Source: Gemmatimonadales bacterium
GTDB taxonomy: Bacteria > Gemmatimonadota > Gemmatimonadetes > Gemmatimonadales > JACORV01
Length of the DNA: 36,855 bases
Assembly (NCBI GenBank): GCA_030697825.1
Contig: JAUYOW010000147.1
Span: 1-36,855, forward strand
Reading direction: 5' to 3'
The notes beneath the pieces were generated by a model that saw nothing but the letters and a program-made list of their open reading frames with translations, ran no database searches and had not been told where the DNA came from. The position numbers and the translations under genes are program-made. Positions 71-25,318 of this stretch are shown piece by piece. Position 1 is the first letter of the stretch. Every line of letters starts with the position of its first letter.

Positions 71-186
71 GTAGGGTGAGTAAGGGTGAGTAAGGGAAGT
101 AAGGGGAGTAAGGGAAGTAAGGGGAGTAAGGGGAGTAAGGGGAGTAAGGGGAGTAAGGGGAGAGAGGGGAGAGAGGGGAGAGAGGG
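65..186. repeat. 9-bp tandem repeat array, about 13 units
   Basis: Consecutive units read GGGTGAGTA, GGGTGAGTAA (twice, 10 bp), GGGAAGTAA, GGGGAGTAA, GGGAAGTAA, GGGGAGTAA (four times), then GGGGAGAGA (three times). The units drift gradually from GTGAGTA through GAGTA to GAGAGA, as expected from slippage duplication. Each has a run of 3-4 G on the plus strand, so the array could form G-quadruplexes. It exactly fills the gap between two convergent genes, overlapping the stop of the first and ending 2 bp before the stop codon of the next. Confidence 0.95.
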
Positions 187-13954: not shown

Positions 13955-14496
13955 GTGAGCGCGCTCGACCCGTCGACCGCCGGCCTGGTACGCGTCGCCC
14001 TCGCGATCCCGGACGCGGAAGAAGCGGCGTCGCGGCCGCCGCGCTGCGCGCCGTCGTGCCCGCGTCCGGGGAGGGCGCCGACGCCGCGGACTACGATCGT
14101 TGGAGGGAGTGGCTCTCGCGTGGAGAGGAAACCGGCCGCCGCATCTACGGCCCGCAGTTCGACCAGCTGCGGCGCAACGTGGCCGCCCTGCACCCGGCGC
14201 TCGATCTCTGGATCGTCGTGGACGGGTACGGGCGTACCATCAGCCGGCCGGCGCTCGACATGACCAGGCGTGAGCTGTGCTCGATCGCCATGCTCGTTCC
14301 CCAGAACGCGCCCCGGCAGCTGCACTCGCACCTGCGTGGCGCGCTGAACGTCGGTGCGACGCCTGACCAGGTTGCCGCTGTCCTGGCGCTCGCCGGAGAG
14401 GTCGGACTTCCGGGCTCGCGAGTGGACGCTGCACGCGCCCTGTGGCACGACTTCGCTGCTTCCGCCAACGGCCAACGGCCGACGGCCAACGGCTGA
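13955..14496 (+). pseudogene. Carboxymuconolactone decarboxylase family gene, frameshifted
   Basis: The C-terminal part (14056-14496, up to 146 residues from GTG 14056) has the AhpD/CMD-like signature LDMTRRELCSIAMLV...QLHSHLRGALNVGATPDQVAAVLALAGEV. A plausible N-terminus, GTG 13955 encoding MSALDPSTAGLVRVALAIPDAEEA, lies in another frame. Restoring one base near 14030 joins it to VAAALRAVVPASGEGADAADY. This looks like a one-base deletion or a sequence error. Compared with my memory of relatives, a segment resembling VEEVLLQSYLFAGFP is also missing between the halves. Whether the short downstream product is made is unknown. It lacks the usual Cys-x-x-Cys peroxidase motif. The next gene is obg. 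Confidence 0.7.
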
Positions 14497-20438: not shown

Positions 20439-20460
20439 ACGTTGCCGGTGTTTATTCCTT

Positions 20461-20492
20461 CACCCATCACCTATCACCCATCACCCATCACC
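20461..20492. repeat. 7-bp tandem repeat, about 4.6 units
   Basis: CACCCAT (20461), CACCTAT (20468), CACCCAT (20475), CACCCAT (20482), CACC (20489). It fills the rsmE-HIT gap, ending 10 bases before the HIT start codon. It occupies the position where a Shine-Dalgarno would be expected and contains none. Confidence 0.92.
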
Positions 20493-20502
20493 GGTTTTCC
20501 GA

Positions 20503-20841
20503 ATGACCGACTGCATGTTCTGCAAGATCGCCAAGGGCGAGACGAAGGCGGACGTCGTCCTCCAGACGCCGGAGGCGATCGCCATCCGGGACATCAACCC
20601 GCAGGCGCCGGACCACGTGCTCGTCATCCCCAACCGGCACCTCGAGTCTCTCAACGACACCACCGACGTGCCGCTGCTGGGCTCGCTCATGCTCCTTGCC
20701 AAGGAAGTGGCAAGGAAGGTGATGATCGACCACGGCGGCTATCGGGTCGTGCTGAATGTGGGGGCCCACGGCGGCCAGACGGTGCCGCACCTGCATCTGC
20801 ACGTGCTGGGAGGGCGGCGGATGAAATGGCCGCCGGGGTAG
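20503..20841 (+). CDS. HIT family (HinT-like) nucleotide hydrolase
   Basis: A 112-residue histidine-triad protein, a cytosolic purine nucleoside phosphoramidase-type hydrolase. The triad is HLHLHVLGG (H96, H98, H100), preceded by GGQTVPH. CMFC near residues 4-7 is the half-site of a structural zinc found in some HIT proteins. LVIPNRHLESLND and VVLNVGAHGGQ are family blocks. I chose ATG 20503; the frame extends upstream through the heptamer repeat without family similarity. No ribosome binding site is evident. Confidence 0.93.
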   Translation: MTDCMFCKIAKGETKADVVLQTPEAIAIRDINPQAPDHVLVIPNRHLESLNDTTDVPLLGSLMLLAKEVARKVMIDHGGYRVVLNVGAHGGQTVPHLHLHVLGGRRMKWPPG

Positions 20842-20930
20842 GGAGCGGGGAGCAGGGAGCGGTACCTTTTGGCGTGCCGCGATGCCTTCGCGCCGCGCCA
20901 AAGGAACCGCTCCCTCAGGAACCGCTCCCC
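20841..20930. repeat. Palindromic repeat cluster between the HIT gene and rpsU
   Basis: Left side: three heptamers GGGAGCG, GGGAGCA, GGGAGCG (20841-20861). Right side: two inverted copies of AGGAACCGCTCCC (20902-20914 and 20917-20929). The inner arms pair over about 19 bp (20855-20874 with 20896-20914; one mismatch, one bulge) around a 21-base loop that can itself pair. This forms a strong hairpin without a T-tract. It may block readthrough from the HIT gene or protect mRNA ends, but its repeat structure suggests a mobile or slippage-derived element. Confidence 0.85.
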
Positions 20931-20935
20931 ATCCC

Positions 20936-20966
20936 TTGTGATGCGTCCAGAGGCCGGTTAACTTTT
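20936..20966 (+). promoter_or_regulatory. Predicted promoter of rpsU
   Basis: TTG (20936-20938), 20 bases, then TAACTTTT (20959-20966). This is the same architecture as the rex promoter and matches the Bacteroidota-type TTG/TAnnTTTG pattern apart from the last base. The leader to the ATG at 21007 is about 35 nt. It lies immediately after the palindromic repeat cluster. Confidence 0.6.
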
Positions 20967-21006: not shown

Positions 21007-21195
21007 ATGCCGGAAGTCATCATCCACGAGGATGAGAACTTCGAGCGCGCGCTGAAGCGCTTCAAGAAGAAGTGCGAGAAGGCGGGCATCCTCTCGGATC
21101 TGAGGAAGCACCGTCACTACGAGAAGCCCAGCGAACGCCGCAAGCGGAAGATGAACGCCGCCCGTCGAAAGAGCCGCCGCACCAGGAGTGAGTGA
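21007..21195 (+). CDS. rpsU: 30S ribosomal protein S21
   Basis: A 62-residue S21: strongly basic, with the family core [37 protein letters not shown] and a lysine/arginine-rich tail. GAGG (20997-21000) lies 6 bases upstream of the ATG. The downstream yqeY remnant overlaps its end by 8 bases, so the usual rpsU-yqeY pairing is kept. Confidence 0.97.
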
Positions 21196-21486
21196 CACGC
21201 TCGTCGAGCAGATCCGCGCCGCGCTGAATGCGGCGCGCAAGGACCGCGACAACGCTCGGACGCTCCTCTACTCAACCCTCCTTTCGGACCTCAAGAACCG
21301 CGATATCGAGCTCGGCCGCGAAGTGAGCGAGGCCGAGTCGGTCGAGGTCGTGACGCCGTGAAGGCGGCGATCGCCGCCGGCGCGAAGGACCTTGGCGCCT
21401 TGATGGGGAAGGTGATGCCGCAGTTCAAGGGTCGCGCGGAAGGGCGGGTGATCAACCAGATCGCCCGCGAGGAGCTGGCCGGATAA
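21188..21486 (+). pseudogene. yqeY: YqeY/GatB-like gene with internal deletion
   Basis: From GTG 21188, one frame gives a good YqeY N-terminus (VEQIRAALNAARKDRDNARTLLYSTLLSDLKNRDIELGREVSEAE), then stops at TGA 21359-21361 after 57 codons. A second frame from 21358 to the TAA at 21484 gives the YqeY C-terminus (AIAAGAKDLGALMGKVMPQFKGRAEGRVINQIAREELAG). The family is about 147-150 residues long; the middle of about 50 residues is absent and the two ends are out of frame. The gene therefore cannot encode a normal protein unless the assembly is wrong. The mutS2 ATG overlaps its TAA. Confidence 0.85.
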
Positions 21487-23537: not shown

Positions 23538-25318
23538 TCGCCCCCGAGCTGATCGAGCAGATCCGCGATGCGGCCGACCTGGTGACCCTGATAGGCGAGC
23601 ACGTCGAGCTCAAGCGCACCGGCTCCGACTTCCGCGGCCCGTGCCCCTTCCACGGCGGCACTCACCGCAACTTCTCCGTGGTGCCGAAGAAGCAGATGTA
23701 CCACTGCTTCGTGTGCCACGAATCGGGGGACGTCTTCACCTTCTGGATGAAGAAGTTCGGGCTCGACTACCCGACCGCCGTCCGCGAGATCGCCGGCAAG
23801 GTGGGCATCGTAGTGCCCGACACCCGCCAGGCCGGGCCGGACCCTAACGAGCCGCTCTACTCCGCGCTCGGGGTCGCCGCCGACTGGTTCGCCCGGCGGT
23901 TGCGCGAGTCCGAGGGCGCCGCGACCGCGCGCGAGTACCTGGCGCGCCGGTCGATCGACGACGTGGTGCGCGACCAGTACCAGCTCGGCTACGCCCCCGC
24001 CCGCGGCGAGGAGATGCTGGAGGCGATGCGCGCCCTCGGCATAGAGGACGGCGCGCTCAAGGGCGCGGGGCTCGTGATGGAGCGGGAGGGCGCGGCACTC
24101 GTCCCACGCTTCCGCGGCCGCCTCATTTTCCCCATCACGGACGCGCGCGGCCGCGTGGTGGGCTTCGGCGGCAGGCTGCTGGGCGACGGCGAGCCCAAGT
24201 ACCTCAACTCGCCCGAAACGGACGTCTTCCACAAGGGGACGCTGCTCTACGGACTCGACCGCGCCCGCGGCGCGATCCGCAGCGAAGGGCTGGCGGTCGT
24301 CGTGGAGGGGTACGTGGACGTCATCCGCCTGCAGGCCGCCGGGATCGGTTTCGCCGTCGCGCCGCTCGGCACCGCCCTCACCGGCGAGCAGGCCCGCGTG
24401 CTGCGGCGCTACGCCAAGAGCGTCGCGCTGGCCCTCGATGCCGACTCCGCCGGGCTCCGCTCCACTTTCCGCGCCGGCGACGAGTTACTGCGCCAGGGCG
24501 TCGCGGTCAGCGTGGTGTCGCTTCCCCAGGGCGAGGACCCCGACACCCTGGTGGCGAAGGGCGGCGCCGAGGCGTTCCGCGCGCTGCTTGGCCAGGCGGT
24601 GGACCTGTTCGAGCGCAAGGTCCAACTCCTCGACCGCAAGGGCCTCTTCGGCTCGCTCGAGGGGCGGAGGCGCGCTCTGGACCGCCTCTTCCCGACCATC
24701 CGCGCCGCCGCCGATCCGATCACGCGCGGCCTGTATCTGGCCCGCGCGGCGGAGCGGAGTGGGGTGTCCAAAGAAGTGCTGGAGCAGGAGGTGGAGCGCG
24801 CGGAACGGCGGAACGCCGGCACGACGGAACGAAGGGGCTCCGAGACGCCGGTGCCCGGCGGAGGCGACGTTCCGCCGTTCCGCCGTTCCGTCGTCCCCCC
24901 CGACATCCCCGCCGAGCGGGACCTCGTGCACCTGATGCTCGCTGATGAGACGTGGGTGGATCGGGTGCGGCGGTCCGTGACGGTCGAGGAGTTCAGGCAC
25001 CCGATGCTGCACGAGATAGCGGCGGCACTCCTCGCCGGCACGCGAGAACCGCCATCGGAGGACGCGGTGACGGCCTGGGAGCGGCTCGCTCGGCCGCGCG
25101 AAGGCAAGTTCGACGCGGAGGCGGCTTTCAACGCGGCGGTCGCCTGGATCGCCGACCGCCCGCGGCGGGAGCGCCTGGTGGAGATCGACCGGCTCATGGC
25201 GCTAGCCGAACGGGACGAGCAGGAGTTGTTGATGGGCGAGAAGATGAAATTGCTTTCGGCGGGCGGCGTTCGGTACGGTCGCAAGTCGATGCAGCCGGAG
25301 AGGGAGCCGAGGTACTAA
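23534..25318 (+). CDS. dnaG: DNA primase DnaG
   Basis: A 594-residue replication primase. The CHC2 zinc finger is C37, H40, C58 and C61 (CPFH...CFVC). The RNA polymerase core includes YQLGYAP and GRLIFPITDARGRVVGFGGRLL. The TOPRIM glutamate lies in VVVEGYVDVIRLQAAG (about 255-270) and the aspartate pair in LALDADSAG. A DnaB-interacting C-terminal domain runs from about residue 460. The linker near 423-455 is unusual: it is encoded by two inverted octamer arrays and reads as Arg/Pro-rich low complexity. The ATG overlaps the mutS2 stop. Confidence 0.96.
   Translation: MIAPELIEQIRDAADLVTLIGEHVELKRTGSDFRGPCPFHGGTHRNFSVVPKKQMYHCFVCHESGDVFTFWMKKFGLDYPTAVREIAGKVGIVVPDTRQAGPDPNEPLYSALGVAADWFARRLRESEGAATAREYLARRSIDDVVRDQYQLGYAPARGEEMLEAMRALGIEDGALKGAGLVMEREGAALVPRFRGRLIFPITDARGRVVGFGGRLLGDGEPKYLNSPETDVFHKGTLLYGLDRARGAIRSEGLAVVVEGYVDVIRLQAAGIGFAVAPLGTALTGEQARVLRRYAKSVALALDADSAGLRSTFRAGDELLRQGVAVSVVSLPQGEDPDTLVAKGGAEAFRALLGQAVDLFERKVQLLDRKGLFGSLEGRRRALDRLFPTIRAAADPITRGLYLARAAERSGVSKEVLEQEVERAERRNAGTTERRGSETPVPGGGDVPPFRRSVVPPDIPAERDLVHLMLADETWVDRVRRSVTVEEFRHPMLHEIAAALLAGTREPPSEDAVTAWERLARPREGKFDAEAAFNAAVAWIADRPRRERLVEIDRLMALAERDEQELLMGEKMKLLSAGGVRYGRKSMQPEREPRY
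24801..24891. repeat. Inverted pair of 8-bp tandem arrays inside dnaG
   Basis: Left array: CGGAACGG, CGGAACGC, CGGCACGA, CGGAACGA (24801-24832). Right array: CGTTCCGC, CGTTCCGC, CGTTCCGT (24868-24891), the reverse complement of the same unit. The 15-base CGGAACGGCGGAACG (24801-24815) pairs perfectly with 24868-24882 or 24876-24890. The reading frame stays open, encoding part of the linker between primase core and C-terminal domain. The mRNA should form a strong hairpin here. Confidence 0.9.

Follow-up and report, generated by a model that had tools for sequence, protein, structure and literature searches.

A stop-codon-adjacent heptamer palindrome between HIT and rpsU in a Gemmatimonadales genome: one copy of a miniature element family whose units may be overwritten at shared sites

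Introduction

The STRR heptamers and SDR elements of cyanobacteria are intergenic tandem heptamers and small dispersed repeats. Heptamer repeats are over-represented in bacteria, and their role is yet to be elucidated (PMC4692102). In Xanthomonas, GGGAATC heptamers form 70-75 convergent inverted pairs per genome, lie on the coding strand, where they overlap stop codons or directly follow them, and are present at the same place in a sister species in 83% of cases, with varied sequence; four units, the minimum for a G4, are preferred, and a link to mobile elements is absent (PMC4692102). The Nostoc heptamer GGGGA[C/T]T has been grouped with the Xanthomonas type, and three Calothrix heptamers are mentioned in the same work (PMC4692102). 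The TAACTGA repeats of Beggiatoaceae are located upstream of start codons and are inverted in one of 170 sets (PMC4679880). The Rickettsia palindromic elements (RPE) are ~150 bp long and do not contain heptamer arrays (PMC10969869).

The locus described here lies in a window of 36,855 nt, by which we mean the whole stretch of DNA analysed; it is contig 147 of a Gemmatimonadota draft genome (3.37 Mb, 333 contigs), the nearest named relative of which is the MAG NC_groundwater_1_Ag_B-0.1um_70_44 (HIT 85% identical). As in Xanthomonas, this genome has tandem G-rich 7-nt units at many sites, and these form convergent pairs with the G-rich arm first.

Results

The HIT-family gene (20503..20841, + strand) ends with the stop codon TAG at 20839-20841, the final G of which doubles as base 1 of the first heptamer; the position of this TAG is kept in five family relatives (G001-G005). 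The left arm (20841..20861, + strand) consists of three tandem heptamers, i.e. GGGAGCG (20841-20847), GGGAGCA (20848-20854) and GGGAGCG (20855-20861), and is followed by a 46-nt core running from GTACC to GGAAC (20862..20907, + strand), which has its own stem-loop (20868-20882/20888-20902). The right arm comprises two inverted 13-mers on the - strand, both AGGAACCGCTCCC (20902..20914 and 20917..20929), the 15-nt spacing of which is that of the AGGTACCGCTCCCCA duplications at other loci. These coordinates bear out a sequence-only reading of the locus, which had described three GGGAGCG-type units facing two inverted 13-mers across a gap of 40 nt. The 19-bp hairpin proposed in that reading is real, but the pairing extends beyond 19 bp: an outer stem of 16 nt (20854-20869/20900-20915, 94% paired) runs on into the stem of the core (15 nt, 87% paired, 5-nt loop), with alternative outer pairings at 20835-20848/20922-20935 and 20855-20867/20917-20929. 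RNA folding gives a single long hairpin of -74.9 kcal/mol vs -47.6 +/- 3.6 kcal/mol in shuffles (z -7.6), a value that 0 of 200 shuffles match. An Rfam search of the window returned only two tRNAs above the gathering score and left the array region unmatched, giving no sign of a known structured RNA.

Downstream of the element lies rpsU, encoding ribosomal protein S21 (21007..21195, + strand; 92-100% identity across six relatives), preceded by a block extending from CTTGT (20935-20939) to TA (20959-20960) that is kept in seven of seven family genomes (20935..20960, + strand). The element stops immediately 5' of this block, which is probably the rpsU promoter, a label that we infer, since a sigma-70 consensus scan found no site. 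Beyond rpsU, a yqeY/GatB-like gene (window 21188-21486) looks broken, its 57 codons being followed by another frame that starts near 21358; in the sister genome G001 only ~50 residues of this gene are alignable and mutS2 is 20 nt downstream.

When the genome was searched with a 160-nt query from the HIT-rpsU element, 50 places resembled the query, and the pattern GGGAGCNGGGAGCNGKWNC gave 119 matches compared with 1 for the reversed control. About 70 distinct sites have two or three GGGAGCG or GGGAGCC units followed by GTACC, with an inverted copy opposite in most of them; the bases after the units are G-T-A-C-C and T-T, the GTACC positions being 85-99% constant in the GGGAGCG class. Unlike in Xanthomonas, where four units are preferred, the 103 distinct arms carry three units (69 arms), two (33) or four (1). 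In 39 of 40 paired elements both arms have an identical seventh unit base (34 G/G, 5 C/C), and the listed paired GGGAGC elements are all in + then - orientation. Core lengths range over 26-58 nt, with clusters at 56-57, 44-46 and 26-28 nt; the 56/57-nt cores share one consensus, with identities as high as 91% even where the flanking sequences of the loci are unrelated. At the start of contig 308 (L175 1-135) the element flanks are mutually inverted at the contig end, probably as a result of an assembly fold-back.

A search of 437 kb of the genome for inverted pairs of short arrays, as the sequence-only reading had suggested, found 11 pairs of period-7/8 arrays vs 0 in five Markov shuffles. A chance palindrome is excluded by these counts together with the fold z-score, the genomic copies and the pattern control, and the proposal of a defined element class is upheld by the family size, the common GTACC, the copies at unrelated loci and the like arrangement of other units. 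With respect to distribution, three tandem GGGAGCN units occur patchily, in 37 of 298 Gemmatimonadota genomes; the array with GTACC is found in 13 of 121 genomes of the order, in two families, and GTTGCAGN x3 in 4 of the 121, all from the family of our genome. Searches of IMG/VR with GGGAGCSGGGAGCSGTACC and of PLSDB with a 47-nt composite query gave no match, which for these queries argues against carriage by the sampled viruses or plasmids. In another family of the order, GTACC arms face each other ~200 nt apart (G118:C52:44640/44867, G081:C5:3570/3797 and G264:C170:6224/6465); thus, longer inserts between arms exist.

The plan of the GGGAGC family is shared by other units. Periods 7 and 8 dominate, with 23 and 18 arrays, respectively, in the 437 kb of own sequence vs 2 and 2 in a shuffle, and with 30 and 36 arrays in a 480-kb sample of G001, the sister. 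Further units with an equivalent arrangement include GTTGCAGA, GCGGAACG, CAGACGCG, GGTGATG, GGGAGTG, GTTGAAGA and GGTCTTA; irrespective of the unit, 37 of 43 paired arrays begin with their purine-rich arm, and in the G001 GTTGCAGA elements L201 and L241 the opposing arms match down to unit variants. The suggestion that dnaG contains the same plan with another, 8-nt unit proved correct: degenerate GCGGAACG 8-mers (24800..24832, + strand) are followed, after a spacer of 35, by three inverted CGTTCCGC 8-mers (24868..24890, - strand; linker PPFRRSVVPP), both arms being in frame and the array being located in a linker of variable length. A second array in the window, of tandem GGTGATG/CATCACC heptamers, occupies the RsmE-HIT gap (20460..20492, - strand), a gap in which G001 has (CACCTAR)n.

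Several other repeats were observed. GTTGCAG 8-mer palindromes are present in G001 (L201 798-922 and L241 3189-3311) and in our genome (L147 14776-14901), the two in G001 being bounded near GTAG/CTAC-like tags reminiscent of REP; a RAYT gene is absent from these genomes. A 9-nt unit, AGTAAGGGG, forms longer arrays at window 89-186, adjoining the contig start, and at L137 9147-9216, and a predicted gene (14056-14496) has a 7-nt GCCAACG-type tandem array at its 3' end (window 14464-14493).

The lead of periods 7 and 8 over all other periods, in both the own and the sister samples, is as would be predicted if the arrays were simple repeats produced by polymerase slippage with 7 nt as a favoured length, as Mrazek (2007) hypothesized according to PMC4679880 and PMC4692102. 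Array length is, however, nearly constant (2-3 units), and the arms of the 8-mer family are matching inverted copies, unit variants included. Moreover, the unit, the non-repeated GTACC and the core recur together at dozens of loci; near-identical arms and cores at unrelated loci imply that the whole unit has been copied, which slippage cannot do, and we consider a slippage origin very unlikely. The 'slippage partners' mentioned in the sequence-only reading are not the chief aspect, because the number of units per arm is almost always 2 or 3.

Placement of the arrays is far from random. Of the 64 intergenic arrays whose neighbouring genes were called, 29 (45%) are <=10 nt from a stop codon vs 5.7% expected had they been scattered at random over these gaps, and the purine strand coincides with the coding strand in a ratio of 33:11; many of the stop-adjacent copies are single arms that do not form a hairpin. 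In addition, 23 of 70 GGGAGC sites are in genes and in frame, a few as terminal extensions, according to gene calls on draft assemblies by a home-made codon model, for which eight genes of the window served as the training set. The GGGAGC unit is free of stop codons in all frames of both strands. Both tgt (tRNA-guanine transglycosylase) and alaS (alanyl-tRNA synthetase) carry an element, corresponding to residues 182-219, which do not align to PDB 4e2v despite good blocks on either side, and to residues 187-225, which do not align to PDB 1riq, respectively. In chorismate synthase an array takes the place of loop residues, with net length nearly unchanged.

The RsmE-HIT-rpsU gene order is conserved in six of six family relatives. 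The HIT-rpsU gap is 168 nt in our genome, 165 nt in the sister G001, whose GGGAGCC element differs in its core, 248 nt in the cousin G003, which has GTGAGAG arrays, and 107-148 nt in G002, G004, G005 and G006, where it is array-free; over the seven genomes, each HIT-rpsU element sits between the stop codon and the conserved CTTGT/TA block. Since both genomes hold an element, the gap is not a clean empty site with respect to G001, the closest relative. The outcome named beforehand as contradicting an element, i.e. a hairpin common to all relatives with compensatory changes, was not found, there being a GGGAGCC element in one of six, GTGAGAG arrays in one of six and no array in four of six.

These comparisons bear on the proposal that the feature serves the upstream gene as a terminator or as a hairpin at its 3' end, maintained by selection. 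A strong hairpin immediately after the stop codon, and the 45% of intergenic arrays close to stop codons, are in accord with such a role. Such a role is nonetheless improbable: the hairpin is not a conserved terminator, as the relatives differ at HIT-rpsU, and there is no U-tract on the + strand, the sole consensus match being a 5-pair stem on the - strand. Like elements are also found inside the translated alaS and tgt genes, and the many stop-adjacent lone arms have no hairpin to offer. The case for compensatory pairing in the cores is unconvincing, with arm identity of 0.463 within and 0.429 between elements, i.e. no co-variation beyond family resemblance (p 0.075).

Our in-depth comparison concerns two species, both represented by draft genomes, with the G001 assembly being 71% complete. 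Among orthologous gaps from stretches not picked for arrays, both species have arrays in 7, our genome only in 3, G001 only in 6 and neither in 77 (Fisher p 2e-5). At the 23 GGGAGC sites for which both flanks were found, in G001 contigs that were partly picked for holding arrays, G001 has an array at ~19, with another unit at 8 of these; its GGGAGC-family arrays comprise 10 sites identified by script plus site 11 by eye, the remainder of the 23 having another unit or none. The seventh base differs between the species: G001 has GGGAGCC in 29 of 30 units, and in our genome GGGAGCG predominates (32 G, 6 C, 3 A).

A species-specific last base, the narrow range of unit numbers and the sense-strand purine bias after stop codons might together signify that the arrays bind a protein or adopt an RNA or DNA structure, e.g. 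as sites for a post-transcriptional regulator or as G-quadruplexes, in a species dialect; G4 and regulator roles have been proposed for other heptamers (PMC4692102, PMC4679880). The functions of the associated genes are, however, unrelated, and copies occur inside genes. A G-quadruplex was rejected as the common feature, because GGGAGCC x3 and GTTGCAGA arrays fall short of four G-tracts. Binding arrays are, in our assessment, the least probable of the explanations considered.

Whether the cores are orthologous depends on the unit. Where both species have GGGAGCC, cores are 0.77, 0.94 and 0.97 identical (and ~0.85 by eye at site 8), whereas core identity between GGGAGCG in our genome and GGGAGCC in G001 is only 0.60-0.63, and 0.39 in tgt. 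At sites where our genome has GGGAGCG elements, G001 has nothing, an array of another unit, or a GGGAGCC element whose core is not orthologous. Change of the unit in situ, one base at a time, is disfavoured, because core orthology holds only where both species have the same unit. At sites 0, 5 and 29 the own/sister core alignment scores are slightly above those of all 200 shuffles, which family resemblance explains, remote orthology being another conceivable reading of these alignments. Four loci of our genome (L029, L009, L151 and L015) have both units adjacent; these could be intermediates or, alternatively, degenerate copies.

At one locus there is a clean empty site: convergent genes abut at TAG|CTA in G001, and a 90-nt element lies between them in our genome. 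In this respect the description of the arrays as inserted elements is supported, but no target site duplication accompanies them (0 of 39 elements at 5-9 nt; matches of 3-4 nt are within the shuffled range) and no RAYT/IS200 transposase was found, Y1_Tnp being detected in 0 of 7 family genomes with controls positive in 5 of 14. Reverse transcriptase (RVT_1) was also found in none of the seven family genomes; REP/RAYT and reverse-transcription models thus lack their enzyme. We consider it unlikely, albeit less so than selection for a terminator, that a transposase acting in trans has moved these arrays as MITE- or REP-like elements, with the arms as terminal inverted repeats and with stop-codon junctions and older arrays as preferred targets. 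In favour of such elements are the discreteness of the palindromes, the fixed arms, the dispersal of copies among unrelated flanks, the empty site and the patchiness across genera; the strongly diverged cores, the missing duplications and the missing Y1_Tnp speak against them.

Discussion

The HIT-rpsU feature belongs to a genome-wide miniature palindromic family, and our results make it somewhat probable that in this family a newer unit overwrote older arrays by copying between elements. The element consists of 2-3 tandem heptamers with GTACC, a core of 26-58 nt and an inverted arm, and occupies tolerated positions, i.e. the bases right after stop codons and frame-neutral spots in genes. Arrays would have spread in waves, with the GGGAGCC elements likely being old and inherited and GGGAGCG representing a later wave that took over array-holding sites. 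From the two species compared, we infer that GGGAGCG was written over both GGGAGCC and 8-mer arrays, copied in each case from another element. The copying could most simply proceed via recombination or template switching between palindromes in replication, and would not need a dedicated RAYT-type transposase. Scarcity of tolerated sites contributes to site sharing, but hardly accounts for the common in-gene positions. A broader, more tentative possibility is that some process introduces 7-8-nt arrays and their inverted counterparts into bacterial genomes wave after wave, preferring older arrays, such that sites stay fixed, in-frame ones in essential genes among them, and one unit gives way to another as a dialect of the species.

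On this view, the HIT-rpsU copy probably persists because it is harmless there, rather than as a required terminator, an influence on the 3' terminus of the HIT transcript being possible but secondary. The function of the family is probably neutral or selfish, since placement tracks tolerance, the gene functions are unrelated and the in-gene copies cannot terminate efficiently. The sister pair, where old arrays and their cores have been passed on together and a newer unit occupies sites at which the sister has other arrays, recasts the choice between slippage and function as a testable question about copying.

The family can be compared with several known systems. The likeness to cyanobacterial STRR and SDR repeats, made by description only, lies in intergenic tandem heptamers and small dispersed repeats, with different units. 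The Beggiatoaceae TAACTGA repeats are similar in being short, intergenic heptamer sets that are patchy over distant lineages, but they lie upstream of starts and are almost never inverted. REP/BIME and REPIN sequences are, as here, small dispersed palindromes located 3' of genes and sometimes in genes (PMC3733652, PMC3116915); they differ in that a RAYT transposase is absent here (Y1_Tnp, 0 of 7 genomes) and in that, on comparison of flanking bases, the edges of GGGAGC elements have no GTAG/CGTC tag consensus, the GTAG at the window element being formed with the HIT stop codon. RPE resemble the present elements as in-frame palindromes inside conserved protein genes; they are set apart, by description rather than by sequence, in size and in having no heptamer arrays. 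The in-frame short palindromes described here add 30-40 residues to housekeeping enzymes (Tgt, AlaRS) outside Rickettsia.

The architecture and stop-codon placement equal those of the Xanthomonas type, and the site context is mostly kept in the sister; as the unit is GGGAGCG/C and not GGGAATC, we regard the two as the same kind of element but not the same family. Unlike in Xanthomonas, the element includes GTACC and copied cores, a single genome contains several units of 7 and 8 nt, about a third of the GGGAGC sites are called in genes, and units differ between sister species at shared sites. Xanthomonas had already provided the layout, but the replacement of one array by another at fixed sites appears to be new. 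Also new are the combination of short arms with GTACC and a copied core, the use of several 7/8-nt units in one genome and the many in-frame copies in conserved genes.
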